Part shown: positions 15,949 through 40,092 of the stretch, one piece after another
Numbering within the stretch: the first letter of the stretch is position 1
Layout: every line of letters starts with the position of its first letter
Origin: Clostridia bacterium
Lineage (GTDB): Bacteria > Bacillota > Clostridia > Oscillospirales > CAG-272
DNA: 40,727 nt
Assembly: GCA_017508195.1 (NCBI GenBank)
Contig: JAFVZL010000053.1
Location: 1-40,727 of the forward strand
Reading direction: 5' to 3'
The notes under the pieces: generated by a model
What the model saw: only the letters and a program-made list of their open reading frames with translations
Told to the model about the DNA's origin: nothing
Databases searched by the model: none
Made by a program: the position numbers and the translations under genes

Positions 15949-16143
15949 ATAATGATTATAGAATGTCGAAAAGGCGAAAAAGCCTTTTCGCGGCTGATTC
16001 GTCAGCCGTTCAAAAAGCCCAATGTGGCTTTTTGTTTCTACATCATTGAAACAGAAATCGACAAATTTCCTTCGGGAAATTTGCTTGCAAATCTCAGATT
16101 TGCGGTCGAAATTTATCAATTTCGACTTTCGATTGTCGTTATA
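15949..16143 (+). repeat. Hairpin-rich element, copy A
   Basis: Six consecutive stem-loops: h1 15967-15990, h2 15991-16008, h3 16011-16034, linker 16035-16060 containing ATCATTGAAA, h4 16062-16083 (TTCG loop), h5 16087-16103, h6 16105-16126. The left end is ATAATGATTATAGAA; the right end (GATTGTCGTTATA) is a degenerate inverted copy. An inverted relative lies at 39869-40092 with the same stems in the same order. It is non-coding. It could be a MITE-like mobile element or a structured RNA. Confidence 0.75.
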
Positions 16144-16148
16144 TACCC

Positions 16149-16181
16149 AAAAAAAGAGGTACCCGCAAAAGCAGGTACCTC
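16149..16181 (-). terminator. Terminator of the Cys-rich repeat lipoprotein gene
   Basis: On the minus strand GAGGTACC pairs with GGGTACCTC across a short loop and is followed by seven T. Confidence 0.88.
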
Positions 16182-16196
16182 GAAAGCTATTGATAA

Positions 16197-18290
16197 TCAG
16201 GAGAGAGGAACGCTGGGAAGAGTTACGCCGCCGTAGGGAGCACCACAGTGGTCACAGGTTCCGTCCTTGTTGGTGTCGGTGTGAGAGGTCTTACCGCACT
16301 TATCGCATGCACAGTTGTCGTCCTCATCAACGTGCTCGATCTTCACCTCGGTGTGGCACTTATCGCACTCACCGTCGCAAAGAGCATCCTCGTGGATGAT
16401 AGGAAGACCTGTCTTGTTACATACGTTACAAGTACCGTCACAGTCGGTGTCGGTGTGTGCATATACGCATGTACCGCACTTATCACATCTCTCGTCCTCG
16501 TCATCACCGTCAACGTGATTGATCTCAACGGGAGCAACCTTACACTTGTCGCAGAAGCCGGAGCAGTCGTTATCAACGTGGTTGATAGCAACCTCGGTGG
16601 GACACTTATCACATACGCCGGAGCAATCAGCGTCAACGTGCTCGACGGTACAGATCTTACACTTGGTGCAGACACCGTTCTCGTCGGGAGTGTGGTTGAT
16701 AGCAACAGCGGTGTTACACTTATCGCAGAAGCCGTCACAGAGAGCATCAACGTGCTCGCCCGTGCACTTCTCGCACTTCTCACAAACGCCGTTCTCGTCA
16801 GAGTCGATGTGTACTATCTCAACGTCAGTACCGCACTTATCGCACTTACCGTCGCAAAGAGCATCCTCGTGAACGATCTCGAACTCGGTGATACCGCACT
16901 TGTTGCACTTACCGTCACAGTCGGTGTCAGCGCACTCAACGCCGGTGCAGAGGCCGCAGACATCGCAGAGATAGTCACCGTTCTCGTCTACACATACAGT
17001 GAACTTGTGGTTACATATGTCACAAAGGTGATCCTCAGGATCAACGTCAACGTGGTCGCCCATGCACGCACCGCACTTGTCACATCCGGGCACGCCGTCC
17101 TCGTCGATGTGGTTGATTTCAACGTCGGTATTGCACTTATCGCATTTACCGTCGCACTTAGCATCAACGTGCTCACCGATACACTTCTTACACTTCTCAC
17201 AAACACCGTCCTCGTCCGAGTCAACGTGGGTGATACCGATCTCGGTGTCGCACTTGTTACATTTACCGTCGCAGTCGGAGTCGATATGGTTGATAGCCAT
17301 GCCTGCTTCGCCGCAGTTATCACAGATACCGTCGCACTTCGCGTCAACGTGACCGAGAATACAGATCTGGCACTTATCGCACTTGCCGTCGGCAGGATCG
17401 GTGTCAACGTGCTCGATATTTACGATGGATCCGCACTTATCGCAGACACCGTCGCAAAGAGCATCAACGTGCTCGCCGATGCACTTCTCGCACTTCTCAC
17501 AAACACCGTTCGAGTCAGCATCAAGATGCTGAATGGGAACTGCGGACTCACACTTGTCGCACTCACCGTCGCACTTAGCATCAACATGGTTAACGGCTAC
17601 GGTCGCACCGCACTTATCGCACTCGCCGTCGCACTTGGCGTCAACGTGCTCGCCGATGCACCTTTCGCACTTATCGCAGATGCCGTCATCATCCTCATCG
17701 CTGTGCTCTACGTCAACCGCGGAACCGCAAACGTCACACGCGCCGTTGCAGTCGCCATCCTCGTGAGTGCCGTCAGCGCAAGCCTCGCACTTGTCGCACT
17801 TACCGTCGCCGTCAGCATCAACGTGAGCTACGTCAACGTCCGCACCGCACTTATCGCACTTACCGTCGCAAAGAGCATCAACGTGCTCTACAAGCACTTC
17901 GGTAGCGCAAAGGTCGCAGGCACCGTCGCAGTTCATATCAAGGTGCAGACCTGACATGCAGTAGTCACACTTGTCACACGCACCGTTACCGTCGTCGTCA
18001 ACGTGAACGATCTCGACGGCTCCGCCACACTTGTCACATTTACCGTTGCAGTCATCGTCAACGTGTGCAATTGCTACCTCAGCCTCGTCAATATCGCACT
18101 TACCGTCACAGTTGTTATCAACGTGATCACCGGTGCATTTCTCGCATTTGTCACACACGCCGTCTGCGTTCTCGTCAACGTGCTCGGTGCATTCGCCACC
18201 GAATATGCTGTCGATCAGGGCACACGATGCCATGCAGAAGACAAGCGCGAAAACAAGAACGAAAATCGATAGGATCTTAGTAATTTTCAT
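16197..18290 (-). CDS. Lipoprotein of 33 tandem Cys/Asp-rich repeats
   Basis: 697 aa: a signal peptide with lipobox-like MASC (Cys23), then almost nothing but about 33 repeats of 18-21 residues. The consensus is HVDxDxDGxCDKC plus a 6-8 residue tail. Two repeat types alternate: one with CxxxCxxC and a hydrophobic tail (CDGKCDKCGxxVxI), the other with CxxCxxC and a short tail (CDKCEKCxGE). The DxDxDG part resembles Ca2+-binding loops of dockerins, EF-hands or thrombospondin type 3 repeats; the Cys/His content suggests Zn or other metal binding, or disulfides. Two repeats carry Cys instead of the leading His. Function is unknown; a surface metal-binding or stalk role is inference. AGGAG precedes the ATG; promoter at 18361-18389. 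Confidence 0.9.
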   Translation of the reverse strand: MKITKILSIFVLVFALVFCMASCALIDSIFGGECTEHVDENADGVCDKCEKCTGDHVDNNCDGKCDIDEAEVAIAHVDDDCNGKCDKCGGAVEIVHVDDDGNGACDKCDYCMSGLHLDMNCDGACDLCATEVLVEHVDALCDGKCDKCGADVDVAHVDADGDGKCDKCEACADGTHEDGDCNGACDVCGSAVDVEHSDEDDDGICDKCERCIGEHVDAKCDGECDKCGATVAVNHVDAKCDGECDKCESAVPIQHLDADSNGVCEKCEKCIGEHVDALCDGVCDKCGSIVNIEHVDTDPADGKCDKCQICILGHVDAKCDGICDNCGEAGMAINHIDSDCDGKCNKCDTEIGITHVDSDEDGVCEKCKKCIGEHVDAKCDGKCDKCNTDVEINHIDEDGVPGCDKCGACMGDHVDVDPEDHLCDICNHKFTVCVDENGDYLCDVCGLCTGVECADTDCDGKCNKCGITEFEIVHEDALCDGKCDKCGTDVEIVHIDSDENGVCEKCEKCTGEHVDALCDGFCDKCNTAVAINHTPDENGVCTKCKICTVEHVDADCSGVCDKCPTEVAINHVDNDCSGFCDKCKVAPVEINHVDGDDEDERCDKCGTCVYAHTDTDCDGTCNVCNKTGLPIIHEDALCDGECDKCHTEVKIEHVDEDDNCACDKCGKTSHTDTNKDGTCDHCGAPYGGVTLPSVPLS

Positions 18291-18360
18291 CTTTTTTCTC
18301 CTATGTAATTATTGTGTAATCTGCACTCGCTTACGCGAGCATACTTCTTACCTTGTAGTC

Positions 18361-18389
18361 ATTATATCATAAAATTAATTATAATGCAA
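18361..18389 (-). promoter_or_regulatory. Promoter of the Cys-rich repeat lipoprotein gene
   Basis: -35 TTGCAT (18389-18384), 17-bp spacer, -10 TATAAT (18366-18361). A hairpin CTCGC-gtaa-GCGAG lies in the leader near 18326-18340. Confidence 0.78.
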
Positions 18390-18480
18390 TATTTTTTCGT
18401 AAGTTTTTACCATATTTGAAAATTTGGCAAGCATCAACAACAGCCTTTAGCGCATTTTAACAAAAAAATAGTCCGAGACC

Positions 18481-18509
18481 TTGATTTGAGAGAACGGATA
18501 TGGTAAAAT
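18481..18509 (+). promoter_or_regulatory. Promoter of the GH2-like gene
   Basis: -35 TTGATT (18481-18486), 17-bp spacer, -10 TAAAAT (18504-18509). The -10 overlaps the first ATG of the open frame (18508), which rules that ATG out as the start. Confidence 0.75.
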
Positions 18510-18576
18510 GTTGATAAAACGCGAGTATAAAACGAACATTCGCAGAAGAATCCTTCTTTCTAAAGGAGAATCAGAC

Positions 18577-20688
18577 GTGCTCACAAAGGAAATAAAGAAT
18601 TGGAGACTCTCCGTCGGAGAGTATAAGGATATTGCGGTAAACGCACCCGTCTCGGTGATAAGTGCGCTGACCGAACTCGGTATTATACCTGAGCCGTACT
18701 ATGCCGAGTGTCCCCGCGATGCATACGATACATGTAAACTGGGTGCATCCTTCATTGCAGAGTTTGAGCTTGAGAGCATCATGATCCTTTCGGATTTCCT
18801 CGAGCTAGATATCGGCGGTATAGATGCACCCGCGCTCCTTGTTATAAACGGCTCCCCCGTCATGCGGATAGAAAAAACGTCGCTGCCGGGCGTGGACGTG
18901 AAGCGCTTCATGCATCTTGGCAAAAACACGGTAGAGCTGCGCTTTGATCCCCGTCTGCCCGATAGCTCCAAATACATAACCGATATTGGACTGTTTGCTC
19001 CCATAAGGATCGTTTCGTACAATAAAGCTGCTATTGATGATGTTGTTGTTAAGCAGAGTTACAATGCGGGCAGAGTGCGTTTAGACGTGAAAATGACAAC
19101 AAAGGGTTACGTTAAGAGCCCAAGGTGCGTTGCTTTGTTGGTCTCTCCGGGGGGCGACGTGAGTTATCTTACCATGGTTGGCGGTGAGGGTTGGGTAGAG
19201 ATCGGCGCGCCGAATCTGTGGCGTCCCGAAAGGCGCACGGAGAATTCGCTCTACCGTCTTACGGTCAATCTCTATTCGGATACCGAGCTTACAGACTCGC
19301 GCGAGTATAAAATAGGACTCGCCTCCGCGACGTATGACCCGGAAAGAAAGCCTGCGCTCACGTTGTCGGGGCAGCCTTGGTATCCTACCGTTATACGCAT
19401 GGACGGTCTTGATTTTATAAAACCGAGGCTCACGGATTCCAAGCTGATGCTTATTCTTGGAAGAGCGAAGGATGCGGGAGCGGATATGCTGCTTATTCCA
19501 ACGAGCTCGGGATACCCCACCGAGGCACTTCTTTCTATGTGCGACAGGATCGGTCTTGCAGTAATGATCGAGCTCGATTCATTCCCTGAGCCTGTCGGTG
19601 ATATTACCGATAAACAGGTGATACGCGATATCGAGAGACTGTTTGACAGACTATCGAACCATACCTCGGTGCTGATCTTTACGGGCGCGATTTCCTACAA
19701 AGAGAAAATTCTATCAATGATTGAGCAGAGAATCCCCGGCGCCGTATACATCGAGGATGCCGGCTGTGCTATCACGACTCCGCCATCTCTGATGACAGTT
19801 CATTCGGTGCGCAAGTACCTGCCCGAGGACTCCTTCAATATATTGTCCGAGTGCCTCACGGGCAGAGCGCAGAAGGGTGTCGATCTTCTGCTCGAGAACG
19901 TACTGAAGAGCTATCGCATGCCTCATAGCTTCGAGGATTGGATGTATTTGTCAGAGCTGATCTCTGCCGAATATGCTGTTGATAAGCTTATCGGTGACAG
20001 GCTTTCGGCAGAAGGGTACGGAGCTCTTCTCGGATCGCTCGGTGAGCCCGTTCCTACGGTATCCGCGTCGATCGTAGATTACACCGCGAGGGTGAAGGCG
20101 ATGTATTACCGCCTCGCGAAGGAATCAAAACGCTCTACGGTCTACTCTGTCATTGAAGATGGTGTTATAAGCTTCTTTGCCTACAATATGACAAATACTG
20201 TTTACAAAGCGAGGCTCACATACGCTATAAACGACAATTATAACGTTGGTATAGTACGAGATAATATTGAAATTGAAGCAGCGCCCTACACGATCGTTAA
20301 GGTGTATGAGTACGATGCGCGCGAGGTTGTTAAGGGGAATGAACGAAGGTATTACCTATATCACTTCGTGAGTGACGATACGGGTGCTCATTCTCACTCC
20401 ACATCCCTTTTCGTGTTGCCGAGAGTGTTTAACTTCGTATCTCCCATGATAAGAGCTGAGCTCGTGGGTGCGCAGTCGGATTATACTCTCACGCTCAGCG
20501 CGACCGCATTTGCGCGCGCTGTCGAGATCAGCTTCGGCGGGGATGACGATATTGTGATCGAGGATAATTATTTTGATCTCGTTTCCGAGGTTCCTTTAAG
20601 ACTGAAGGTGAAATCTTTACGTCCGACAGCGGTCGAGACGCTTAAGCGCGAGATGCGCATACGCTCTATGTACGACGTCGGAAGATGA
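18577..20688 (+). CDS. GH2 beta-mannosidase-like protein, probably catalytically dead
   Basis: 703 aa from GTG 18577, which has AAAGGAG 8 nt upstream. The whole chain follows the beta-mannosidase plan: jelly-roll-like N-terminus, the LWRPERRTENSLYRLTV linker near 214-230, the barrel entry GQPWYP with AKDAGADMLL and CDRIGLAVMIELD, and late PSLMTVHSV, FEDWMYLSE and SIVDYTARVKAMYYRLA. Active members carry SGNNEN (acid/base Glu) and SEFGFQS (nucleophile Glu). Here the matching positions read LIFTGAISY (about 366-374) and EDAGCAITTPPSL, so both Glu appear lost, as does the RxWGG motif (IPTSSGYP). No signal peptide. It may be a carbohydrate-binding pseudoenzyme; an inactive relic is possible, but the frame is intact. 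Confidence 0.8.
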   Translation: MLTKEIKNWRLSVGEYKDIAVNAPVSVISALTELGIIPEPYYAECPRDAYDTCKLGASFIAEFELESIMILSDFLELDIGGIDAPALLVINGSPVMRIEKTSLPGVDVKRFMHLGKNTVELRFDPRLPDSSKYITDIGLFAPIRIVSYNKAAIDDVVVKQSYNAGRVRLDVKMTTKGYVKSPRCVALLVSPGGDVSYLTMVGGEGWVEIGAPNLWRPERRTENSLYRLTVNLYSDTELTDSREYKIGLASATYDPERKPALTLSGQPWYPTVIRMDGLDFIKPRLTDSKLMLILGRAKDAGADMLLIPTSSGYPTEALLSMCDRIGLAVMIELDSFPEPVGDITDKQVIRDIERLFDRLSNHTSVLIFTGAISYKEKILSMIEQRIPGAVYIEDAGCAITTPPSLMTVHSVRKYLPEDSFNILSECLTGRAQKGVDLLLENVLKSYRMPHSFEDWMYLSELISAEYAVDKLIGDRLSAEGYGALLGSLGEPVPTVSASIVDYTARVKAMYYRLAKESKRSTVYSVIEDGVISFFAYNMTNTVYKARLTYAINDNYNVGIVRDNIEIEAAPYTIVKVYEYDAREVVKGNERRYYLYHFVSDDTGAHSHSTSLFVLPRVFNFVSPMIRAELVGAQSDYTLTLSATAFARAVEISFGGDDDIVIEDNYFDLVSEVPLRLKVKSLRPTAVETLKREMRIRSMYDVGR

Positions 20689-20786
20689 TGAGCCGAGAGG
20701 CGTGCTGTGACTTAAGCTGCATTTGTAAAAGCTTCTTCGGAACGCTCCGAAAGCCTTTCCGGTACACCTATAATATCTTTAATATA

Positions 20787-20838
20787 ATAAAAATCACCCT
20801 AGCCGAGCCGAAATCTCGATTAAGGTGATTTTTTTTGT
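20787..20838. terminator. Bidirectional terminator between convergent genes
   Basis: AAAATCACC (about 20790-20798) pairs with GGTGATTTT (20824-20832), with A-run and T-run on either side and an inner CGA/TCG pairing. It serves the GH2-like gene (+) and the ATPase gene (-). Confidence 0.85.
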
Positions 20839-23246
20839 TATATCATTCTTTCTTTCGAGCAGGTGAAATATACAACCTGCTTTTCGCGGGATATCTGCCT
20901 TAAGAGCTCTTTAGCTCGCTCGAGCTTGTCTGAGTCCAGCGCAGTGAACGGATCGTCGAGAATCACGAATGGCAGCTCGGAGCCGAAGAGCGAGTCTGCA
21001 AGTGCCATTCTTAAGCAGAATGAGTGAAGGTCGCGCATACCGCGGCTGTAGCTTTCCGCGACACGGGTCTCGCCTCTTTCAACTTTTTTGAGCACGAAGT
21101 CGGTTCCGAGAGTAAACTCTCCCTCGCCGTCCGAGATGGTACTGAGATAGTGCTTGAAGCGCGCTTTTGTACCGCCGATATAGCGAGAGGTCATTGCCTC
21201 TGATGCCTCGTTCAGCATCGCTGCGGTCGCGAGTATGACCGAAAGGTTTTCCTCGTACTCGGAGAGCTTGGTAACGAGAGCCTCCTTTGCCGACATTACC
21301 TCGTCGGTGCGCTCTATCTCGGCGATCGCCGCACTGTACTCGCGATCCAGAACCGCATGCTCGCGGCGCAGATCGGTAAGTCTGTCATCGTACTGTCTGA
21401 GTCTCTGCTCCATTTCACCGATATCCTTGCCCTCCTCGGGTGCGAGAATATCCGACTCGGATATTCCGTGAATCTCACGGAAGCTGCGACATTCGTCCTC
21501 GCGTCTGGCTATGGTCATTTTTGCGTAGGTGTATGAGTTCAGCTTAGTGCGGATCTCCTCGAAGGGATCTCTGCTGACCGTTCCGAACCTTTCCTTAAAG
21601 GCACGGACCTTCTCCTCGAGGAAGCTGATCCTTACGTCCAGCTCTCGGCGCGAGCCCTCGTTCTGCCTTGCGTTTTCGAGGAGGGTGTAATATTTCTTGT
21701 ATTTGATCTCTATGACCGAGACCGCCTCGGACAGATCGCTTTTGCCGTGCGGGTAGTGAGAGGTATACTCGGTAAGCTCTTTCGTGTATCTTTCGATATC
21801 GGCACCAAGAGAGCGTATTCTCTCCTCATCTCGCTTTACCGATGCCTCGTGAAGAAGAAGTCTTTCGCGCAGAGCACCGAGCTCCTTTTCGACAGAGCCC
21901 GATATACCCATCGAGCTTATGTATGCCTTGGCGCGAGTGAGTACACCGTTCGCTCTGATAACGAATATTATAGCATGTATAAGGAAGGGGATCGCACCGA
22001 GGAAGAGATAAGGCGTTACGAATGCACCGAGAAGAATAAAGGGAATAATCAGGAGTGTGAAAACAATAGCGGGAATATACCTGTTCTTGTTTCCGAGAGC
22101 AGTTATATAGGCTGTGATATCATCGATATCAGGCAGTTTTCCGCCAAGCTCATCCTCGAGAGTCTCGGTCGCAAATTTCATGTTTGCCGTGACCGCACCT
22201 ATCTCAGCATCAGCCTCGGTTATTTTCTGCGCCATGCGCTTTGCATTATCTATCTCGGCAAAGTCTGTGGTCCTGCCGAAGAAGTCGCGCAGCTCGGTAA
22301 GCTCGGGAGCTTCCGCATCGCGCCTTGACTGTCTGAGCCTTTCCGCCTCTCTCCAGGCATCGCGCGCCTCGTCTATCTCGTAGGTGGTTGGAGTACCGCC
22401 TGCGAAGCACTCTTCAAGCTCACGGAGCGCAGCCTTGTCGCGCTCTAGAGCACGGACCATCTCGGAATACTGCTCGCGGTGAGAGCGCCTTTCTCTCTTT
22501 GCGCGCTCCAGGGTGATCTCGCGGTGAAGCTCCGCACGCTCCGATTCGAGCTGATCGATCGATGCCTTGATTGCCGTGATCCCGGCTTCCTCGCGCTCGG
22601 CGTCCATTCTCCTTCTTTCGAGATTGTCGAGCGCAGCATCACATTCTGCGATCTTAGTGCGCAGCACCGCGATCTCGCCGGAATTGCCTCGCTTCTGGTA
22701 ATATTTTCTTCTTTCCTCGAGCCGTGAAAGAGCACCGCTTACCGCACCCACGTCACCGTCAGTGCCGACGAGGTCAGAGAGCTTTGCAGATATGGTATCG
22801 TTGACGATAGCACCGCCGAGATTTTTTTCGGAGAGGAATATAGTTCTCTCAAAGCCCTGGGCATCTATGTTGAATATCTCATATCCTATATTTTCGCTGT
22901 AATCGACCGATAGCGAGCCCGTGTCCATATTCTCGAGCCTGAAGGTATCGTCGGATGCCTTAGCACCGAAGAAGCGCTCGATACGGTATCTCTTTCCGCC
23001 CTCTGAGAAGGAGAGCGAGCCTCCGTATCTTCCGCCCTGCCATGGGGCGTACTTTTTTCTGTCATTCTCATCAAGCGACTGCTTTCTCTCTGCGTTAAGA
23101 CCGTAGAACATTGCGCGTATAAACACCGAAAGCGTCGTTTTTCCCGAGCCGTTCTCCGACCAGATGGCGTTCATTCCGTCCTTGAATCTGTAGCTGTATT
23201 GGGAGAGCTTGCCGAAGTTTTCTACATATAGATCTAATAGCTTCAT
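20838..23246 (-). CDS. SbcC/YhaN-like AAA ATPase
   Basis: 802 aa. Walker A is in SENGSGKTT near residues 30-38 and Walker B with D-loop is in FVILDDPFTALDSDK near the C-terminus; SYSRGMRDLHSF is the ABC-like signature. Long charged coiled-coil stretches fill the middle. Two hydrophobic segments near residues 390-430 (IVFTLLIIPFILLGAF and YLFLGAIPFLIHAIIFV) resemble YhaN rather than classical SbcC. It probably works with the neighbouring metallophosphoesterase as an SbcCD/Rad50-Mre11-like DNA end-processing complex. The frame opens 10 codons upstream, but the ATG at 23246 has AAGGAGGGG in front and starts the family N-terminus MKLLDLYVENFGKL. Confidence 0.9.
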   Translation of the reverse strand: MKLLDLYVENFGKLSQYSYRFKDGMNAIWSENGSGKTTLSVFIRAMFYGLNAERKQSLDENDRKKYAPWQGGRYGGSLSFSEGGKRYRIERFFGAKASDDTFRLENMDTGSLSVDYSENIGYEIFNIDAQGFERTIFLSEKNLGGAIVNDTISAKLSDLVGTDGDVGAVSGALSRLEERRKYYQKRGNSGEIAVLRTKIAECDAALDNLERRRMDAEREEAGITAIKASIDQLESERAELHREITLERAKRERRSHREQYSEMVRALERDKAALRELEECFAGGTPTTYEIDEARDAWREAERLRQSRRDAEAPELTELRDFFGRTTDFAEIDNAKRMAQKITEADAEIGAVTANMKFATETLEDELGGKLPDIDDITAYITALGNKNRYIPAIVFTLLIIPFILLGAFVTPYLFLGAIPFLIHAIIFVIRANGVLTRAKAYISSMGISGSVEKELGALRERLLLHEASVKRDEERIRSLGADIERYTKELTEYTSHYPHGKSDLSEAVSVIEIKYKKYYTLLENARQNEGSRRELDVRISFLEEKVRAFKERFGTVSRDPFEEIRTKLNSYTYAKMTIARREDECRSFREIHGISESDILAPEEGKDIGEMEQRLRQYDDRLTDLRREHAVLDREYSAAIAEIERTDEVMSAKEALVTKLSEYEENLSVILATAAMLNEASEAMTSRYIGGTKARFKHYLSTISDGEGEFTLGTDFVLKKVERGETRVAESYSRGMRDLHSFCLRMALADSLFGSELPFVILDDPFTALDSDKLERAKELLRQISREKQVVYFTCSKERMI

Positions 23247-23256
23247 CGTCCCCTCC

Positions 23257-28612: not shown

Positions 28613-28666
28613 TTTATTGCAAATAATTGTTGGGAAATGTTGGTTTTTACAGATTATTCCGCTATA

Positions 28667-28784
28667 TCAGATAATGGAAACCTTCTTCATTCTGACACCG
28701 ATCTTGGGTCTGTCGTTGTAATCGGTGGGGATAGCAGCTATCTCGTCTACCGCCTCGATGCCCGATACTACTCTGCCGAATGCG
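28667..28784 (-). pseudogene. 3' fragment of the cyclophilin gene
   Basis: Bases 28678-28784 repeat 32508-32614 of the intact cyclophilin gene at an offset of 3,830 with only about two mismatches. The frame reads AFGRVVSGIEAVDEIAAIP and on to KKVSII, then stop. It has no start, no ribosome binding site and no catalytic core. Upstream of 28784 the similarity ends abruptly. It is a recent partial duplication or an integration scar. Confidence 0.93.
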
Positions 28785-32195: not shown

Positions 32196-32228
32196 TTAAT
32201 ATGCTACCTCCTTGTTTTATTATAACAA

Positions 32229-32274: not shown

Positions 32275-32294
32275 GATTGTTCGTATATACTCGC

Positions 32295-32384: not shown

Positions 32385-32396
32385 TAATCTGTTTTA

Positions 32397-32485: not shown

Positions 32486-32496
32486 TAAGCTATCGA

Positions 32497-32967
32497 TTAT
32501 ATGATAGAAACCTTCTTCATTCTGACACCGATCTTGGGTCTGTCGTTGTAATCGGTGGGTATAGCCGCTATCTCGTCTACCGCCTCGATGCCCGATACTA
32601 CTCTGCCGAATGCGGCATACTGACCGTCGAGGTGGGGAGCATCCGCGTGCATGATGAAGAACTGCGAGGATGCGGAGTTAGGGTTGAATGAGCGCGCCAT
32701 CGATATAACACCGCGCTCGTGCTTAAGATCGTTCTTAACACCGTTCGCTCTGAACTCGCCCTTGATATTTTCCTCTGCGCCGCCCATGCCGTTGCCGAGG
32801 GGGTCGCCGCCCTGGATCATAAAGCCGGGAATAACTCTGTGGAAGGTGAGACCGTCATAGAAGCCCGCCTTGACAAGCTTCTCAAAGTTCGCTACCGTGA
32901 TGGGAGCTACCTCGGGGTAGAGCTCTATTTCGATCTTAGCTCCGTTTTCCATTTCGATAAGTACCAT
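32497..32967 (-). CDS. Cyclophilin-type peptidyl-prolyl cis-trans isomerase
   Basis: 156 aa, a single cytoplasmic cyclophilin domain that speeds proline isomerisation in protein folding. The catalytic Arg is in FHRVIPGFMIQGGDP, followed by MARSFNPNSASSQFFI and LDGQYAAFGRVVSG, all standard. No signal peptide. AAAGGAG precedes the ATG. The last 35 codons are duplicated 3.83 kb downstream (28667-28784), so the present 3' end may come from an integration event. Confidence 0.95.
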   Translation of the reverse strand: MVLIEMENGAKIEIELYPEVAPITVANFEKLVKAGFYDGLTFHRVIPGFMIQGGDPLGNGMGGAEENIKGEFRANGVKNDLKHERGVISMARSFNPNSASSQFFIMHADAPHLDGQYAAFGRVVSGIEAVDEIAAIPTDYNDRPKIGVRMKKVSII

Positions 32968-33040
32968 AATAATCTCCTTTATCGGTATAATTTTATTATT
33001 ATTTTGTTATAATTTAATAAAAAAGTCGTGGGGGGTCAAT

Positions 33041-34111: not shown

Positions 34112-34762
34112 GCCCTCTTTATCAAGAGCTTCCTTAATTTTATCATATGAGGGATGCTTTTCGGCATTACCGATAAAGTAGGCGCATCCCGAATACACTC
34201 CCGAAGCACCGCCGATAAAGCCGTATTCATATGGCGGCAGCTCTATTCCACCTTGCTCGATAAGATATGCGCGGATGCCGTTTTCCGTAAGCAGGGCGTA
34301 CATTCCGCGGTCTGCGGTGATAGCCGCCTCATCCGACAGCTTCATGACCGTACAGGCAGGATAACCCTGATTCGAGTTTATGACCGTATATCCGCGGCTC
34401 TCGGCGAGCTCTTTCAGATAAATAGAGAGAGAAGCCTCTCTTGCATAGATGCTCTTTCCCATAACTAGCGCGTTGAGGATAACGTCGTCGGGGTAGACTT
34501 TGCCGTGAATATCCGAGGTAAAGTGCATTCTCATGCGCGTATTGTCGTAAATCACCGACATCTCCGCCTCGCCAGCTTCTAGGTAGTCCGAGGTCGAAAC
34601 AAGCTCGTCACCGATACGGCATATGAGCATATCGGGGTGCGAGGATAGTGGCTCGGAGAGCCTTGCTGAGGGTGGCATAAGCACGGGCATAAAGCCGTAT
34701 TGCATGAGCCGCCTCAGTGCACACTCTGGCATTCGTGAATCTACTATTGCGATTTTTTTCAT
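34007..34762 (-). CDS. GME-fold protein (DUF6873-like)
   Basis: 251 aa from the ATG at 34762 (MKKIAIVDSRMPE). It resembles my memory of the DUF6873 family, predicted to share the fold of guanidino-modifying enzymes (arginine deiminase, DDAH). Family-like segments are HGKVYPDDVILNALVMG, SNQGYPACTVMKLSDEA with a candidate nucleophile Cys, and AAITADRGMY. No activity is established. No good ribosome binding site is seen and the start is uncertain (an in-frame ATG also lies at 34780). It lies downstream of rpmB but beyond a strong terminator. Its 3' end overlaps the YtvI-type gene tail to tail by 105 bp. Confidence 0.75.
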   Translation of the reverse strand: MKKIAIVDSRMPECALRRLMQYGFMPVLMPPSARLSEPLSSHPDMLICRIGDELVSTSDYLEAGEAEMSVIYDNTRMRMHFTSDIHGKVYPDDVILNALVMGKSIYAREASLSIYLKELAESRGYTVINSNQGYPACTVMKLSDEAAITADRGMYALLTENGIRAYLIEQGGIELPPYEYGFIGGASGVYSGCAYFIGNAEKHPSYDKIKEALDKEGLRPVMLGDFPLSDLGGILFLEGDVNDDRNHGDEQ

Positions 34763-34823
34763 TTTCAGATTATGCCGCATTGCTCGCGGCTTTTCTCCCG
34801 ACAATAATTCCGAGGATAACAAA

Positions 34824-34847
34824 AAACTCCGCCACAAGCGGAGTTTT
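34824..34847 (-). terminator. Terminator of rpmB
   Basis: On the minus strand AAACTCCGC pairs with GCGGAGTTT around TTGTG and ends in TTTTTT; it starts 7 nt after the rpmB stop. Confidence 0.9.
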
Positions 34848-34854
34848 TGATGCG

Positions 34855-35040
34855 TTATATACGCTCGACCTTTCCGGAACGAAGGCAACGGGAGCAAACT
34901 GCAACGGTGGTATGAGCACCGTCAACAACTGCCTTAACCTTACGAATGTTAGGCTTCCAGGTTCTGTTGGTCTTACGGTTAGAGTGGGAAACGTTATGAC
35001 CGAAGGTCACGCCCTTACCGCAAATGCTACACTTAGCCAT
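34855..35040 (-). CDS. rpmB: 50S ribosomal protein bL28 (zinc-binding form)
   Basis: 61 aa, typical for bL28. It starts MAKCSICGKGVTFGHNVSHS and keeps the RKTNRTWKPN core. Two Cys pairs, CSIC near the start and CSRC near the end, mark the zinc-binding (C+) paralogue type. GGAGGTG precedes the ATG. It is a single-gene transcript: promoter at 35116-35144, a leader of about 70 nt with a small hairpin (AGTCC-ttcg-GGGCT), and a terminator directly after the stop. Confidence 0.98.
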   Translation of the reverse strand: MAKCSICGKGVTFGHNVSHSNRKTNRTWKPNIRKVKAVVDGAHTTVAVCSRCLRSGKVERI

Positions 35041-35115
35041 TTTGACACCTCCAAATCTAGCCCCGAAGGACTAAAATCTATCTAAATTTATTTGAAAACT
35101 AAATCAGCAAGCAAT

Positions 35116-35144
35116 ATTATAGCACATAGCTTGTCAAATTGCAA
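35116..35144 (-). promoter_or_regulatory. Promoter of rpmB
   Basis: -35 TTGCAA (35144-35139), 17-bp spacer, -10 TATAAT (35121-35116) with TGTGC directly before it. Confidence 0.82.
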
Positions 35145-35180
35145 GAGCTTTTTTCGTTTTTTTAAAACTTTTTTTGAGTA

Positions 35181-35966
35181 TTATTTACCGAGCTTCTTCG
35201 TTTTTTCATACGCGCTGAGCACCGCATCTGATACCACGCCGCGCATACCGCCCGCCTCGAGCGCAAGAACGCCCTCAATGGTGCTTCCGCCGGGGGAGCA
35301 GACCGCATCCTTAAGCTCACCCGGGTGCTTACCCGACTCGAGCACGACGGTAGCCGCACCGAGTGCGGTCTTAGCCGCGTATTGCATAGCCTTGTCGCGG
35401 GGCAGACCCGCAGCCACCGCACCGTCGGCAAGAGCCTCGATGAACATATATACGAAGGCAGGACCGCAGCCCGAAAGAGCCGAGCCAGCATCGATAAGTG
35501 CCTCGGGTATCTTGTCAAGCGTGCCCGAATACTTCATGAAATCAAGGAACTTATCGAGCCTCACCTCTCCGACCTCTGGTGTGGCGGTATATAGTATCAT
35601 TCCTTCACCGTATGCAACGGGAGTGTTGGGCATAATTCTTATGATGGGATGATTTTTTCCGAGAGCCTCGGTGAGTGACTCGAGCTTAACGCCCGCACAC
35701 ATGCTGATAAGCACGGTATCCTCATCCAAGAACTCCTTAAGCTCCGAGAGCACGCCCCTTACGATATTCGGCTTGACACCGAGGAAGATATAGTCGCACT
35801 CCTTAAGGTCGGATAGCTCCGAGGGCTTTGCATCTATCTCCTTTGCAAGAGCGATAGATCTTTCGGTATCCTTATCGTAAAGGTATATTCTTGCATAGGA
35901 AACTCTCGCGACGGCACGTGCGAGCGCACCGCCCATGTTTCCGCAGCCTATAAATCCAATATTCAT
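35181..35966 (-). CDS. proC: Pyrroline-5-carboxylate reductase
   Basis: Catalyses the last step of proline synthesis, NAD(P)H-dependent reduction of pyrroline-5-carboxylate. 261 aa. The N-terminal dinucleotide-binding motif is GFIGCGNMGGAL; MPNTPVAYGEG (about 117-127) and the long C-terminal signature SALSGCGPAFVYMFIEAL followed by the AGLPRDKA region are diagnostic. It is the third gene of proB-proA-proC, 12 nt after proA, with AAGGAG upstream. Confidence 0.97.
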   Translation of the reverse strand: MNIGFIGCGNMGGALARAVARVSYARIYLYDKDTERSIALAKEIDAKPSELSDLKECDYIFLGVKPNIVRGVLSELKEFLDEDTVLISMCAGVKLESLTEALGKNHPIIRIMPNTPVAYGEGMILYTATPEVGEVRLDKFLDFMKYSGTLDKIPEALIDAGSALSGCGPAFVYMFIEALADGAVAAGLPRDKAMQYAAKTALGAATVVLESGKHPGELKDAVCSPGGSTIEGVLALEAGGMRGVVSDAVLSAYEKTKKLGK

Positions 35967-35978
35967 AGTATCTCCTTT

Positions 35979-37238
35979 TTAACGGATCTGTCCGTTACCG
36001 CGTATTATATACTTGTATGTGGTAAGCTCGGATATTCCCATCGGCCCCCTTGCGTGCATCTTCTGCGTAGAGATGCCCATCTCGCAGCCGAGACCGAACT
36101 CGCCGCCGTCGGTGAATCTTGTAGATGCGTTCACGTACACCGCCGCAGAATCGACAGAAGAAAGGAACTTAGCCTCTGCCTCGGGCGACTCGGTGAGGAT
36201 AGCCTCACTGTGGTGTGTTGAATGCTCACCGATATGGGCGATAGCCTCGTCCACGCTGTCGAGTACGCGTACCGCCATTCTGTAATCAAGGAACTCGGTA
36301 TCGTAGCTTTCGCTATCGGCGGGTGTTACGGGAATGATAGCCGCGGTGCGAGCGTCACCTATGATATCAACGGGAGTAAGCCCCTCTTTAGCTCTTTGTG
36401 TGACGAGTCTATCATATACGAGAGGGAGAAGCCTCTCGGAAAGTGCTGAGTGAACGAGCAGCACCTCCATCGCGTTACACACGGATGGGCGCTGAGTCTT
36501 GGCATTCTCGATGATATCGAGAGCCATATCGACATTGCAGCTTTCGTCAGCGTATATATGACATATACCCGTACCCGTTTCGATTACGGGGACGATAGCA
36601 TTTTCGACACATGCGGAAATAAGACCCTTGCCGCCTCTCGGTATAAGAAGGTCAACGTAGCCGCGGGCGCGCATAAGCTCCGTGGCACTCGCTCTCGTAG
36701 TATCGTCGATAAGCTGAACCGCGCACTCGGGCAGTCCTGCGCGAACAATTCCGCGCGTCAGCGCATCGACTATCGCTCTTGCCGAGCGGTATGCTTCCTT
36801 ACCTCCTCTGAGAATACAGACGTTACCGCTTTTCAAGGCAAGTGCGGCAGCATCGGAGGTGACGTTCGGGCGCGACTCGTAAATAATAGCCACGACACCC
36901 ATAGGCACGACCGTCTTTTCGATCTTAAGACCGTTCGGGCGCTCTACCGTAGATATTACTTCACCGAGAGGGGAGGGGAGAGCCATGGCGTCGAGTATGC
37001 CCTTTGCCATTCCCTCAATGCGCTCGGGAGTCAGTCTAAGTCGGTCTATCATGACCGCGCTGACCTTGTCGCGCGCCGCCTCACAGTCGAGCGCGTTAGC
37101 CTCGAGGATAGTGTCCTTATCCTTGACGAGCTCCTCTGCCATATAGGATAATGCCGTATTTATCTTTTCCTTTGAGGTGCCTCGCATCATAAGCTCGGCA
37201 GCCTTCGCATCCTTTAATATGTCAAGTGTTGTTTTCAT
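35979..37238 (-). CDS. proA: Gamma-glutamyl phosphate reductase
   Basis: Reduces gamma-glutamyl phosphate to glutamate-5-semialdehyde, the second step of proline synthesis. 419 aa, the usual size. Family landmarks are GVVAIIYESRPNVTSDAAAL near 113-132, GNVCILRGGKEA, DLLIPRGGKGLI and the region around the catalytic Cys, TGICHIYADESC. TDGGEFGLGCEMGIS is near the C-terminus. Its ATG overlaps the proB stop by 4 bp, so translation is coupled. Confidence 0.97.
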   Translation of the reverse strand: MKTTLDILKDAKAAELMMRGTSKEKINTALSYMAEELVKDKDTILEANALDCEAARDKVSAVMIDRLRLTPERIEGMAKGILDAMALPSPLGEVISTVERPNGLKIEKTVVPMGVVAIIYESRPNVTSDAAALALKSGNVCILRGGKEAYRSARAIVDALTRGIVRAGLPECAVQLIDDTTRASATELMRARGYVDLLIPRGGKGLISACVENAIVPVIETGTGICHIYADESCNVDMALDIIENAKTQRPSVCNAMEVLLVHSALSERLLPLVYDRLVTQRAKEGLTPVDIIGDARTAAIIPVTPADSESYDTEFLDYRMAVRVLDSVDEAIAHIGEHSTHHSEAILTESPEAEAKFLSSVDSAAVYVNASTRFTDGGEFGLGCEMGISTQKMHARGPMGISELTTYKYIIRGNGQIR

Positions 37239-38011
37239 TTTGTGCTCTTTTCAGAATAAAATCTCGTTCCTACGTCGATTCCATCGAGGATATTGTAAAG
37301 TCTCTCGGGGTAGGCACCGTTGGTGATTATCATATCGCAGCCGCCGTCGGTGGCTATCCTCGCGGCACGGAGCTTGGTCTGCATACCGCCCGTACCGAGC
37401 GCGGAGCCCGCACCCTCGCCGAGTGCCATGACATCATCGGTTATCTCGCGCACCTCTCTTATGAGAGTCGCATCGGGGTTCTTTCTGGGATCTGCGGTGT
37501 AGAGCCCCTCGATATCCGAAAGGAGCACCAAGAGATCTGCACCCACGCTTGCCGCGATGCGAGCAGAGAGGGTATCGTTATCACCGAACTCGATCTCCTC
37601 TGTGGATATAGTATCGTTTTCGTTTATGATAGGAATGACCGAGAGCTCAAGCAGTCTGTTTACCGTCGCATCGAATTTTGCGTGTCTGTCCTCGCACTCG
37701 AGGTCCGGAGCAGTGAGAAGTATTTGCGCTACCGTGTGGTTATGCTGTGCAAATTCCTTGTCGTATATGTACATCAGCTCGCACTGACCGACCGCAGCCG
37801 CTGCCTGCTTTGATGCAATATCGGTAGGCCTTTTCGACAGGTGGAGCTTACCGACACCCATGCCGATAGCACCCGAGGAAACGATAATGACCTCATTTCC
37901 CGCGTTCTTCATATCGCTGATGGTGCGGCAGAGCATCTCTATTCTTCTGATGTTGACCGAGCCGTTCGCATAGGTCAGTGTCGAAGTACCTATCTTAATA
38001 ACAATTCTCAT
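37235..38011 (-). CDS. proB: Glutamate 5-kinase
   Basis: Phosphorylates glutamate to start proline synthesis and is normally inhibited by proline. 258 aa, the amino-acid-kinase domain only; the C-terminal PUA domain of longer homologues is absent. Visible motifs are VIKIGTSTLT at the start, VSSGAIGMG near 45-53, IINENDTIS and LGTGGMQTKLRAA. GGAGGAAG precedes the ATG. It leads the proBAC operon from the promoter at 38045-38073. Confidence 0.97.
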   Translation of the reverse strand: MRIVIKIGTSTLTYANGSVNIRRIEMLCRTISDMKNAGNEVIIVSSGAIGMGVGKLHLSKRPTDIASKQAAAAVGQCELMYIYDKEFAQHNHTVAQILLTAPDLECEDRHAKFDATVNRLLELSVIPIINENDTISTEEIEFGDNDTLSARIAASVGADLLVLLSDIEGLYTADPRKNPDATLIREVREITDDVMALGEGAGSALGTGGMQTKLRAARIATDGGCDMIITNGAYPERLYNILDGIDVGTRFYSEKSTK

Positions 38012-38044
38012 AGCTTCCTCCGCGAATCCTTTATCTTACCCTAC

Positions 38045-38073
38045 ATTTTAGCACAATAAAAAAATTTTTGCAA
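38045..38073 (-). promoter_or_regulatory. Promoter of proBAC
   Basis: -35 TTGCAA (38073-38068), 17-bp spacer ending TTGTGC, -10 TAAAAT (38050-38045). Its core (TTGTGCTAAAAT) is the same as in the folT promoter. Confidence 0.78.
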
Positions 38074-38166
38074 TATTTATTTTAAAAACGGAAATGTATA
38101 TATTCTGAACAACAAAGGTTTTTCGTGTGAATTCTGTGAAATCCTATGAAAATGACCCCCTATGCC

Positions 38167-38195
38167 TTGATTTATTTGTGCGCTTGTGTTACAAT
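38167..38195 (+). promoter_or_regulatory. Promoter of the membrane LuxR regulator gene
   Basis: -35 TTGATT (38167-38172), 17-bp spacer, -10 TACAAT (38190-38195). Confidence 0.75.
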
Positions 38196-38230
38196 ATTTA
38201 ATAACAAAGGGAATTTAAGGAGGTAAGCCT

Positions 38231-39187
38231 ATGACAACGGGATATATAATTTGCTTTATAGCCGCAGTAGGCTTACTGATCGCTTACTCGGTGGTGGTGA
38301 AAACCAAGGAATTTTGGCTGACGATGTTATACGTTTGCGTGTCGGTGGTCAACCTTGGATATTTGCTTATGTCCTTTGCAAACACCGTGGAGTTTGCCGT
38401 GTTCGGCAACGACGTGGCGTACCTCGGCAGCGTATTCCTCTCGATGTGTATGTTTCTCACCATCGTCCGTCTTTGCGGATTTGAGGTAAGGAGAGCTCAC
38501 GTTATAACCTGCGTGTCGCTCGGTGCATTGATGTTTATTATCGTTGCAATCTCACCGATGCTTCCGCTTTATTATAAGAGCGTGGATATCGAAACGGTTG
38601 ACGGTGCGACAAAGCTCGTTAAGGAATACGGAGTGCTCCATCCCGTTTATTTGGTGTATCTGCTCGGCTACTTTGCCGCAATGATAGGAACGATAATTCA
38701 CTCCGTGAGAAAAAAGAAGATCGCTAACCCGAAGCAAGCCGGCTTTATTGCCGCCATTGTATGCAGCAATATTACAGTGTGGCTGTTTGAGAAAATGGTA
38801 AGCTGGGAATACGAATTTCTTTCGGTCACTTACATAATATCAGAGCTTTTGTTGCTGGTCGTTTATTGGATGCTTCAGGATTACGTTCACAAGAATAATA
38901 TTCCTATGTTAACCACGACAGAGAAAGAGCGGCTCGGTGTTGATATCGCCACCATGCCAATGAACATCAAAATAGGTAAGGTGCTGCTTTCGTTAAAGAA
39001 CGGAGAAACGCTTGCACCGCGTGAGCGAGAGATACTTGAGCTGATACTCGAGAACAAAAAGCGTCGTGAAATTGCTGAAATTATGTTCCTCTCGGAAAAC
39101 ACGGTCAAGACCTACACGAGAACGCTATATTCCAAGCTCGGTGTAAGTAATCGAGAGGAATTATATGCGCTTCTTTTAGTTGAATAA
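38231..39187 (+). CDS. Membrane-bound LuxR-type regulator
   Basis: 318 aa. Residues 1-225 hold about seven transmembrane segments in the pattern of 7TM N-terminal sensor domains (HisKA_7TM-like). A short linker leads to a C-terminal GerE/LuxR HTH at about 255-318 with LAPREREILELILENKKRREI and FLSENTVKTYTRTLYSKLGV. It is therefore a one-component receptor that binds DNA from the membrane, with no kinase or receiver domain. AAGGAGGTAA precedes the ATG. The signal is unknown. Operator-like repeats lie between it and the next gene, so it may control that gene. Confidence 0.88.
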   Translation: MTTGYIICFIAAVGLLIAYSVVVKTKEFWLTMLYVCVSVVNLGYLLMSFANTVEFAVFGNDVAYLGSVFLSMCMFLTIVRLCGFEVRRAHVITCVSLGALMFIIVAISPMLPLYYKSVDIETVDGATKLVKEYGVLHPVYLVYLLGYFAAMIGTIIHSVRKKKIANPKQAGFIAAIVCSNITVWLFEKMVSWEYEFLSVTYIISELLLLVVYWMLQDYVHKNNIPMLTTTEKERLGVDIATMPMNIKIGKVLLSLKNGETLAPREREILELILENKKRREIAEIMFLSENTVKTYTRTLYSKLGVSNREELYALLLVE

Positions 39188-39215
39188 GCTGAATAGGCAA
39201 ACCATTATTTACATT

Positions 39216-39248
39216 GGACGGTGGAAATATCCACCGTCCCTTTTCTTT
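39216..39248 (+). terminator. Terminator of the membrane LuxR gene
   Basis: GGACGGTGGA pairs with TCCACCGTCC around AATA, followed by CTTTTCTTTTTT. Confidence 0.92.
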
Positions 39249-39300
39249 TTTATGTATGTGCATCATACAGCCCCACACTTGAATTGCGATCATCATACTC

Positions 39301-39344
39301 TTTTCACCCCTTTTTCACCCCTGAAATCGAAGCTTTTCACCCCT
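39301..39344. promoter_or_regulatory. Helically phased TTTTCACCCCT repeats
   Basis: Three exact copies of the 11-mer TTTTCACCCCT at 39301, 39312 and 39334: offsets of 11 and 22 bp, so all lie on one face of the helix. The last is followed by TATGGGGTG, an inverted partner. A -10-like TATGATAAAAT lies near 39371-39381 without a good -35, as expected for an activator-dependent promoter. Direct repeats at 11 bp are typical of OmpR/PhoB-type activators, but a LuxR-type regulator is the nearest candidate. Confidence 0.6.
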
Positions 39345-39437
39345 ATGGGGTGTACCGAAAAAGAGTACTGCTATGATAAAATGTAGACAAGATGATATTC
39401 GGTATTATCAAGAAAACTGAAACGGAGGTGGTGAAAT

Positions 39438-39872
39438 GTGACCGAAAAGCGAATTCTATTCGGCAAGTTTGAATTCCCCGTGGAGAAAGGGCTCGAATAT
39501 CTCGTCAACGAGAACATTCCCGAAACCGACTTTCTCTGCATCAACGAGCCGCACGATGCCTTTTCAATGATGTTTGAAAAGGACTTCCCGATCTTCACCG
39601 TACCCGAACACTCCGACAGGGATTATTGTCTGTTCGAGCTGAAGCGATCAGAACGAGTGATCAAATTCTTCTGCCCCGAAAGGCATAAAAATCTCGACAC
39701 GGCGGTATGGTACTTCTGCATGGAGCTTTTTGACGAAAGCGGTGAAGCTCACACTCTGCCCGGACAGGTACGGGTTGAATTCGACGGAAACTGTATCCGT
39801 CATGCAAAAGGAAAGCCGAAATTCATAGAGCTACTCGAAGGCGTGAAGCTCGCCACGGCAGCCTCGGTATAA
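39438..39872 (+). CDS. Hypothetical protein, 144 aa
   Basis: I do not recognise the family. Soluble, mixed charge, no signal peptide or membrane segment. It starts at GTG 39438 with GGAGGTG 7 nt upstream, a strong reason to accept the gene. Cys residues are scattered without CxxC pairs. It lies downstream of the phased TTTTCACCCCT repeats and is followed at once by hairpin-rich element B; its TAA stop lies in the left inverted repeat of that element. A related element also follows the small HTH gene at 15537. Confidence 0.7.
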   Translation: MTEKRILFGKFEFPVEKGLEYLVNENIPETDFLCINEPHDAFSMMFEKDFPIFTVPEHSDRDYCLFELKRSERVIKFFCPERHKNLDTAVWYFCMELFDESGEAHTLPGQVRVEFDGNCIRHAKGKPKFIELLEGVKLATAASV

Positions 39873-40092
39873 TGATTATCGGAAGTCGAAATAGTGCCGA
39901 CGGCTCTATTTCGAAGCCAAATCTTTGATTTGGCAACAAATTTTCGATGTGAAATTACAAATCTGTTATAATTCAAACGAAAATTTGCCGATCTTCATTT
40001 CAATGATACAGTAGCAAAAAGCCGTTTCGACTTTTTGCCTCGGCTGTTTTCAGCCGAAGAAAAGGCTTTGATGCCTTTTCTGTAATCATTCT
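39869..40092 (-). repeat. Hairpin-rich element, copy B (inverted)
   Basis: Read on the minus strand it has the same six stems as copy A: h1 40080-40059, h2 40056-40041, h3 40037-40015, a linker with ATCATTGAAA, h4 39987-39937, h5 39934-39916, h6 39914-39886. Exact 8-bp ends AATGATTA (39871-39878) and TAATCATT (40083-40090) form terminal inverted repeats. The h4 loop is about 30 nt longer than in A and contains, on the plus strand, TGTTATAAT (39964-39972), which could act as an extended -10 for the gene downstream. Confidence 0.75.

Follow-up and report, generated by a model that had tools for sequence, protein, structure and literature searches.

The 40,727-nt stretch of DNA analyzed here (the window) carries two copies, A and B, of a dispersed non-coding mobile family. 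Copy A spans positions 15949-16142 (+) including its flanking AT dinucleotides, and copy B spans positions 39869-40092 (-) including its flanking dinucleotides. We propose, with a probability of approximately 0.5, that the family is a non-autonomous, non-coding mobile DNA element whose working form is a DNA strand folded in two cloverleaf-like domains. Conservation of the fold extends far past that of the sequence, the loops being nearly free, and the element inserts precisely at AT, duplicates this AT, lies mostly outside open reading frames (ORFs), and forms AT-sharing arrays. The results suggest that what lets the element move is its shape, probably in DNA form.

The sequence-only reading of the window had described two inverted, diverged copies of a six-hairpin element. 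Both are present with the stems that it quoted, but the genome has many more copies that it had not noticed: at 85-100% identity, the window's own MAG contains 21 A-type places measuring 129 bp or more, copy A itself counted. The family model, with the own genome counted each time, matched 18 of 69 same-genus genomes, 12 of 394 genomes of the order, and 2 of 391 genomes of the class. The distribution is patchy and extends over nine families of the order. The homologues have kept the stems; their lack, or the loss of their stems, had been named as evidence against the element. The A type measures approximately 192 bp, and copies across the family mostly measure 190-250 bp. The hosts of the family are gut bacteria. 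Carriage by phages or plasmids was rejected, as one 25-base pattern of the element had no match in viral contigs, copy B had none in phages, and copy A had none in plasmids. No title among the open-access papers surveyed describes this element family.

Beyond what the sequence-only reading had described, folding and covariation revealed that in each of the two cloverleaf-like domains an outer end and half of the linker close three hairpins (Table 1). The folds of copies A and B lay 8.4 and 10.7 standard deviations below those of dinucleotide shuffles, respectively, and in neither case was any of 200 shuffles as stable; the fold of L032 lay only 2.4 standard deviations below. Among 28 diverse copies, 36 of the 48 stem pairs exhibited double changes, and stem covariation was 0.439, compared with 0.136 after shuffling and at most 0.051 after sliding. 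The paired changes noted earlier thus hold up over the family, and conservation of structure over sequence is supported. Where the sequences of h1-h3 differ between sub-families (e.g., A, L011, L137, and L158), hairpins are kept at those places. Counting against the folded form, some copies lack hairpins, with a reduced first domain in L127, L135, and L160 and a different second part in L142. Each end co-varied with the linker (own versus other, 17.43 vs 14.56 and 16.18 vs 12.39; 0/5000 permutations each). The left and right ends did not co-vary with each other (14.11 own vs 14.15 other; 2799/5000 permutations as good). The 8-bp end repeat reported for copy B exists, but both ends are stem strands that pair with the linker. 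Diversity (pi) was 0.42 in the loops and 0.034 in the stems, and the linker was more conserved than the loops. The loop excess was unclear in the G061 B-type set and in the G250 set, which probably mixes orientations, and modest in the G195 set; loop hypermutation is not claimed as a separate process. Template switching between hairpin arms could yield part of the covariation without selection.

Table 1. Features of copies A and B in the window, with the basis of each assignment
Feature	Position	Strand	Basis
A, left AT (2-bp duplication)	15949..15950	+	AT borders tabulated copies; a single AT at empty sites
A, left end AATGATTATAG, outer strand of domain-1 closing stem	15951..15961	+	Linker co-variation, 0/5000 permutations
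A, partner strand of left end, linker CTACATCATT	within 16035..16061	+	Pairing
A, hairpin 1	15968..15989	+	Folding; double changes in 6/8 pairs
A, hairpin 2	15990..16009	+	Double changes in 7/7 pairs
A, hairpin 3	16011..16034	+	Double changes in 9/9 pairs
A, linker, containing ATCATTGAAA of the sequence-only reading; inner strands of both closing stems	16035..16061	+	
A, hairpin 4	16062..16083	+	Double changes in 5/8 pairs
A, hairpin 5	16087..16103	+	Double changes in 4/7 pairs
A, hairpin 6	16105..16126	+	Double changes in 5/9 pairs
A, right end TCGATTGTCGTT, outer strand of domain-2 closing stem	16129..16140	+	Linker co-variation, 0/5000 permutations
A, right AT	16141..16142	+	AT borders tabulated copies
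B, right AT	39869..39870	-	A single AT at the unoccupied orthologous site of G018
B, right end CCGATAATCATT, outer strand of domain-2 closing stem	39871..39882	-	Folding; linker co-variation
B, hairpin 6	39886..39914	-	Folding; pair double changes
B, hairpin 5	39916..39934	-	Folding; pair double changes
B, hairpin 4 (exceeds that of A by 29 nt)	39937..39987	-	Folding
B, linker, inner strand of each closing stem	39988..40013	-	
B, hairpin 3	40014..40038	-	Folding
B, hairpin 2	40040..40057	-	Folding
B, hairpin 1	40059..40080	-	Folding
B, left end AATGATTACAG, outer strand of domain-1 closing stem	40080..40090	-	Pairs with linker CTGTATCATT
B, left duplicate, AG in place of the AT at the empty site	40091..40092	-	Comparison with G018

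Comparison with relatives lacking the insert revealed, again beyond the sequence-only reading, that insertion is precise and produces a 2-bp AT duplication. The site of copy B itself is empty in G018, which kept one AT, and empty orthologues were identified for L052 (in G016), L124 (in G023 and G078), and L112 (in G007 and G001); these are all four sites for which a relative could be aligned, and every one of the six comparisons found the site empty. A paralogous empty site showed 1 mismatch in 46, and the preferred insertion context was T-AT-A. These precise insertions and empty sites, together with the patchy distribution, support the mobility that had been surmised from the two copies. Of 60 insertions, 8 had a reading frame running open across the site, compared with 930 of 1200 random positions, and the orientation of genes around the insertions revealed nothing clear. 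Copies also form head-to-tail arrays in which neighbours have one AT in common. Tandem arrays of small hairpin units occur in these genomes, and the element has entered one of them twice by the same rule. IS630/mariner-type MITEs duplicate TA; this type was rejected because the empty sites give AT, not TA.

As to the claim that each copy follows a small gene, copy A begins 31 bp past an ORF of 126 aa whose Crp-type HTH matches fall at the edge of the Pfam cut-offs. A 144-aa ORF (39438-39872) without a Pfam match has its stop codon overlapped by copy B, whose right AT provides the T that opens the codon. The arrangement appears incidental.

A minority of insertions lie exactly within a -10 promoter box, which the element end restores. 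The ends start with AATGA, so that an element entering TATAA(T) would recreate TATAAT or, at copy B, a TAA stop, and this restoration may make insertions mild and thereby help the element persist. A -35-like hexamer preceded the restored TATAAT by exactly 17 nt at 18 of 126 external left ends when at least 4/6 matches were required and at 10 of 126 when at least 5/6 were required (5.0% and 0.9%, respectively, at other spacings); right ends showed little of this (6/109). TATAAT sites elsewhere in this DNA carried a -35 as often as the left ends did (138/844), making dedicated promoter targeting superfluous. Copy L137 has a -10 box on one side and a TPP riboswitch on the other, and the empty orthologue of L052 has an intact promoter followed by a sub-threshold AdoCbl-II match. 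The element thus illustrates that a -10 box or a stop codon can receive an insertion and still remain intact.

In the proposed mechanism, the pairing would act in DNA, with single-stranded or extruded hairpins being recognized by a recombinase in trans. We suggest only tentatively that the family represents a class of bacterial mobile DNA that is recognized by its two-cloverleaf shape and joined into AT, and that the same machinery builds the tandem arrays of hairpin units.

The best-surviving alternative, which we nevertheless consider unlikely, is an ordinary MITE whose ends would be bound as double-stranded DNA by the DDE-type transposase of an unsampled IS, the palindromes being passengers kept perfect by template switching. 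The element is indeed short, non-coding, and mobile, with a target-site duplication of 2 bp, but the MITE-like label of the sequence-only reading is only partly right. Its sites outside genes and the broadly inverted-repeat type of its ends also speak for a MITE. The ends are alike in outline (AAYGR..YCRTT), but their co-variation is with the linker and not with each other. Template switching is described as causing arm homogenization and spacer inversion in the cited parts of PMC8604942 and PMC8794818, and one h1 loop was found inverted (GAAAAA in five copies and TTTTTC in two). The retention of hairpins in sub-families with different h1-h3 sequences and the conservation of the linker beyond that of the loops argue for the folded-strand reading instead. 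No transposase-bearing element with matching ends was noticed either, in partial scans that covered nine genomes for the left-type end only (at most 3 mismatches) and 1.72 Mb for both end types (at most 4 mismatches). The latter scan yielded 12 inward pairs 300-4000 bp apart, mostly neighbouring copies as judged by spacing and inner ends; the ORFs in pairs L051 and L066, an AAA_14/DUF4143 ATPase and a 174-aa ORF, were not recognized as transposases. Of four distinct hits to relatives of the L051 protein (itself counted) in the 1.72 Mb, two were no more than 60 bp from an element end, too few to judge the ATPase as a partner.

No enzyme partner was found among the Y1, IS30 HTH_38, and reverse transcriptase (RT) families tested in the genus genomes. 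A Y1 transposase exceeded the cut-off in 15 of 69 genomes and in 6 of the 18 with the element (Fisher p 0.19; the MAGs have gaps), and none was found in the copy-rich G060, where such gaps leave some doubt. IS30 HTH_38 exceeded the cut-off in 18 of 69 genomes and in 5 of the 18 (p 1.0), and none was found in the own genome, a MAG. Both enzymes were rejected as resident movers because neither was associated with the element across the 69 genomes. Y1 enzymes recognize a folded single strand, and the replication-fork single-strand mechanism of the IS200/IS605 type predicts an orientation bias relative to the fork. Orientation relative to GC skew, a rough proxy within at most 20 kb, was positive in 18 of 38 cases, with no bias. 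Derivation from IS200/IS605 or REP/RAYT is not supported, since Y1 does not track the element and this bias is missing.

An improbable alternative is a mobile structured RNA, in which the transcribed fold would be the functional unit, as an RNA intermediate or a 5' leader. The strong predicted folds of copies A and B are consistent with it, and copies with a -35 at 17 nt from the restored TATAAT could be transcribed from their 5' end. The stem cells of 74 copies comprised 3254 Watson-Crick, 32 G-T, 30 A-C, and 47 other combinations, and the 28 diverse copies contained 16 G-T and 12 A-C; because G-T is approximately as frequent as A-C, pairing in DNA fits better than pairing in RNA. This parity could partly reflect decay after insertion. 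RT was found in 11 of 69 genus genomes and in none of the 18 with the element (Fisher p 0.055; many MAGs are incomplete), and reverse transcription by a resident enzyme was rejected on this basis. Also against an RNA, the loops are the least conserved part, the ends of A and B carry no promoter-like site (one weak site lies inside B), and TATAAT sites elsewhere have a -35 as often. Rfam gave no match over A or B, at the gathering score or at E <= 0.1. On the G-T and A-C counts, the RT distribution, and the Rfam result, the earlier suggestion of a structured RNA that moves is not supported.

That the host keeps and spreads the element by selection for its own benefit (cis-regulation, insulation, or nucleoid function) is very improbable: the sites outside genes and the settings of L137 and L052 are consistent with it, but the element occurs in only 18 of 69 genus genomes, its sites were empty in every comparison with an aligned relative, and promoter-type sites are a minority.

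Several known systems resemble the folded DNA element in part. Correia repeat enclosed elements of Neisseria are likewise small non-coding insertions; their cited description gives inverted-repeat ends and RNase III and IHF sites, with no double cloverleaf in that description (PMC2649163). The first bases of a Correia element can supply a -10 to a flanking -35, the "Snyder promoter" (PMC2649163), whereas the present element enters an existing -10 and restores it. Prokaryotic MITEs, as described in part of PMC10969869, are also short and non-coding, with AT-rich intergenic sites and stable predicted folds, but are thought to be IS-derived and to share terminal repeats; in the present element the ends find their pairing partner in the linker, and it has no known parent. 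REP/REPIN sequences with RAYT (TnpA-REP) and IS200/IS605 derivatives (PMC3116915, PMC8266576) consist, like the element, of palindromic DNA. The element differs from these in the Y1 distribution (6/18 element genomes, none found in G060) and in the absence of strand bias.

In our best reading, the element appears most like mitochondrial GC clusters, in behaviour and with no common descent claimed. It combines a 2-bp duplication, conserved stems, variable loops, and no gene. Within the cited account of yeast GC42 (PMC4478555), these clusters are gene-free mobile hairpin DNA whose loops vary more than their stems and whose palindromic units merge and shuffle, mostly in intergenic DNA, by an amplification mechanism that is unsettled, all of which the element shares. 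The GC42 duplication is AG and that of the element is AT; GC42 is mitochondrial, 42 nt long, and GC-rich, whereas the element is bacterial, mostly 190-250 bp long, and built of two cloverleaf domains (PMC4478555). Mitochondrial hairpin and double-hairpin elements, as portrayed in the cited part of PMC2800124, similarly have conserved stems, differing loops, intergenic dispersal, and inferred mobility; they mostly comprise one or two hairpins in organelle DNA and are compared here by behaviour only. If the reading is true, it could be tested directly whether folded DNA, and not the end sequence, serves to recognize a mobile element, and bacteria possess, in genetically testable genomes, an element that behaves like the mitochondrial hairpin elements.

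The six-hairpin elements constitute a family that is real, mobile, and conserved in structure. The stems claimed for copies A and B were present and matched stem for stem, and none of 200 shuffles was equally stable for either copy (z -8.4 for A and -10.7 for B). An Rfam search over the two copies returned no family match, and neither is located at a promoter. Both copies described by the sequence-only reading are thus real, but they are not a mere pair, because copy A identified 21 A-type places (its own among them, each 129 bp or longer and 85-100% identical) in its own genome (G000, a MAG of 2.02 Mb, 54 contigs, and 88% completeness), in addition to shorter pieces; contig ends cut five of these places. 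The copy B query recovered many of the copy A places together with members of another sub-family, of which one was complete (G000:C12:36653-36883) and carried different h1-h3 sequences.

Features in the window and related loci
Feature	Position	Strand	Remarks
Copy A	15949-16142	+	Stems as first described
Copy B	39869-40092	-	Stems as first described
697-aa ORF	16197-18290	-	Convergent with copy A; many related repeat units, no Pfam match
THF riboswitch	5302-5404	-	Above Rfam cut-off
ZMP/ZTP riboswitch	8550-8630	-	Above Rfam cut-off
Near-identical direct repeats	1-465		187 bp, 96%, start-to-start 278 bp
Near-identical direct repeats	28666-28784 / 32496-32614		119 bp, 95%
Hairpin-unit array	L284:5660-6040		G000:C12, about 25.7-26.0 kb
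Hairpin-unit array	L295:18274-18480		G060:C7
Hairpin-unit array	L130/L195		G062:C21; two element copies at its AT spacers

A covariance model (R1) built from 17 own-genome copies had matches in 18 of the 69 genus genomes, weak ones in a few (G067, G076, and G079; E 1e-5 to 2e-3). With six candidates scored per genome, which makes these counts lower bounds, matches were found in at least 12 of 394 order-drawn genomes from nine families (two of the 12 belonging to the genus) and in at least 2 of 391 class-drawn genomes (the own genome being one). An exact 25-base pattern retrieved 50 stretches from genomes in GTDB, every one of them labeled as a Clostridia or Oscillospiraceae MAG, with goat, sheep, cattle, buffalo, and deer guts as named sources. 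No match was obtained with this pattern in viral contigs, with copy B in phages, or with copy A in plasmids.

The energy model folded copy B into two domains, in each of which a closing stem, formed by an outer end and half of the linker, encloses three hairpins. Hairpin order was kept in most of 27 folded representatives despite widely different sequences (z from -2.4 in locus L032 to -14.6 in L129); the first domain was reduced in L127, L135, and L160, and the second part differed in L142. The claim that paired changes keep the stems was borne out in 28 diverse copies, in which 97.2% of 1291 cells were paired and 36 of 48 pairs showed double changes. The alignment was fitted to the structure, which favors these results; the covariation score was 0.439, compared with 0.136 for shuffles, which keep shared ancestry, and at most 0.051 for slid alignments. 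Because the closing stems lie outside the fitted structure, they provide a fairer test. Across the 28 rows, the left end complemented its own linker better than those of others (17.43 vs 14.56; 0 of 5000 permutations), and the same held for the linker and the right end belonging to it (16.18 vs 12.39; 0 of 5000); a 21-row version agreed. The left and right ends, a control with equal relatedness, did not co-vary (14.11 vs 14.15; 2799 of 5000). The ends pair with the linker and not with each other; therefore, the 8-bp terminal inverted repeats previously proposed are strands of two separate stems.

We searched with the joined flanks of 16 sites, and a relative aligned through the junction for four, in six comparisons. 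The copy B site was uninterrupted in genome G018 (TGTT-AT-ACCG, compared with TGTT-AG-AATGATTACAG...ATCATT-AT-ACCG in the window), the L052 site (G000:C12:12976) in G016, promoter included, the L124 site (G061:C73) in G023 and G078, and the L112 site (G060:C22) in G007 and G001, where identity was 69-73% and the borders were consequently less exact. The left flank of L132 had many matches ending near the junction and was uninformative on an empty site. When the flanks of one of two copies inside a hairpin-unit array of G062 were joined by a single AT, an uninterrupted match was found in the same array with 1 mismatch in 46; the second copy yielded 6 in 46. At none of the 79 sites tested did a reconstruction lacking AT, or one carrying ATAT, find a match, and the AT-joined matches among these, being mostly tandem copies, are weak proof on their own. 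With tandem junctions counted, T preceded the AT in 62 of 79 cases and A followed it in 59; head-to-tail neighbors have one AT in common. A reading frame ran uninterrupted through the site in 8 of 60 insertions, whereas 930 of 1200 positions drawn at random from this DNA were spanned by one, indicating that the sites lie mostly outside genes.

The arrays, intergenic in appearance, consist of tandem single-hairpin units of about 20 bp whose stems differ but whose spacer hardly changes. At four loci of G060 and G061 (L220, L221, L222, and L223), AT dinucleotides border a 20-bp fusion of the left and right ends, AATGATTATAGAATGTCGTT, which carries one change in two of the four; it is either a minimal form that is mobile or the product of a deletion that recurs at TGTCG.

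A -35-like hexamer of at least 4/6 at a spacer of exactly 17 was present at 18 of 126 external left ends, compared with 5.0% for other spacer lengths (binomial 6e-5), and one of at least 5/6 at 10 of 126, compared with 0.9% (3e-7). The right ends had 6 of 109, 3 of them with at least 5 of 6 (p 0.03). Both boxes were present in the reconstructed empty site for 17 of 70 left ends having both flanks, for which 13 is the fairer count because the right flanks of L012, L118, L157, and L190 start another copy or fragment. The L137 element has TTGACA-N17-TATAAT on one side and, on the other, a TPP riboswitch (L137:430-531, above the Rfam cut-off) just downstream of the entered promoter, and the empty L052 ortholog carries an uninterrupted TTGAAA-N17-TATAAT followed by an AdoCbl-II match below the cut-off (26.1 vs 36.5 bits). 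Special promoter targeting is countered by TATAAT sites elsewhere in this DNA, which had a -35 as often as the left ends did (138 of 844); the T-AT-A preference therefore explains the promoter sites. The remaining point of interest is the element end AATGA, which recreates TATAAT and, at copy B, a TAA stop codon.

The stem cells of 74 curated copies comprised 3254 Watson-Crick, 32 G-T, 30 A-C, and 47 other pairs, with 76 further rows of the copy alignment excluded as opposite-strand, overlapping, or uncurated; the diverse set had 16 G-T and 12 A-C. RNA is expected to tolerate G-U clearly above A-C. The parity is suggestive evidence against RNA, although post-insertion decay would also pull the ratio toward it. 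Diversity (pi) among 16 A-type copies was highest in loops (0.42), compared with 0.034 in stems, 0.12 in the linker, and 0.03-0.08 at the ends. Across six within-genome sets, the loop excess was clear in G000, G060, and the A-type copies of G061, modest in G195, and absent in the B-type copies of G061 and in G250. One h1 loop occurred in both orientations (GAAAAA in 5 copies and TTTTTC in 2), as template switching would produce; other inverted loops are short A/T runs and may reflect chance. We infer that the substrate of the element is folded DNA.

Among the 69 genus genomes, none of three enzyme families was associated with the element: Y1 transposases exceeded the cut-off in 15 genomes, 6 of them among the 18 element carriers (p 0.19), with none found in the copy-rich, 95% complete G060; IS30 HTH_38 occurred in 18 genomes, 5 of them carriers (p 1.0), and reverse transcriptase in 11, none of them a carrier (p 0.055). 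Orientation showed no bias relative to GC skew: of the 38 insertions flanked by 8 kb or more, 18 had positive skew. A left-type end scan of nine genomes revealed many element ends and zero reversed-control matches; the matches inspected were elements, fragments, 20-bp left-right fusions, and a few lone end-like stretches. Inward end pairs 300-4000 bp apart numbered 12 in 1.72 Mb, and their spacing and inner ends point mostly to neighboring copies. A 411-aa AAA_14/DUF4143 ATPase gene lies between two partial, single-domain-like elements (L051:1502-2995, G045:C17), and 2 of 4 distinct matches to its protein in 1.72 Mb, itself counted, had an element end no more than 60 bp away. This ATPase is a lead only, possibly cargo, a partner, or a chance association.

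The defining tests gave no support for an RNA family, an IS630-type MITE, or a derivative of IS200/IS605 or RAYT or of IS30. No title found in searches of the open-access literature described the family. In behavior, it most resembles the GC clusters (PMC4478555) and hairpin-forming elements (PMC2800124) of mitochondria.
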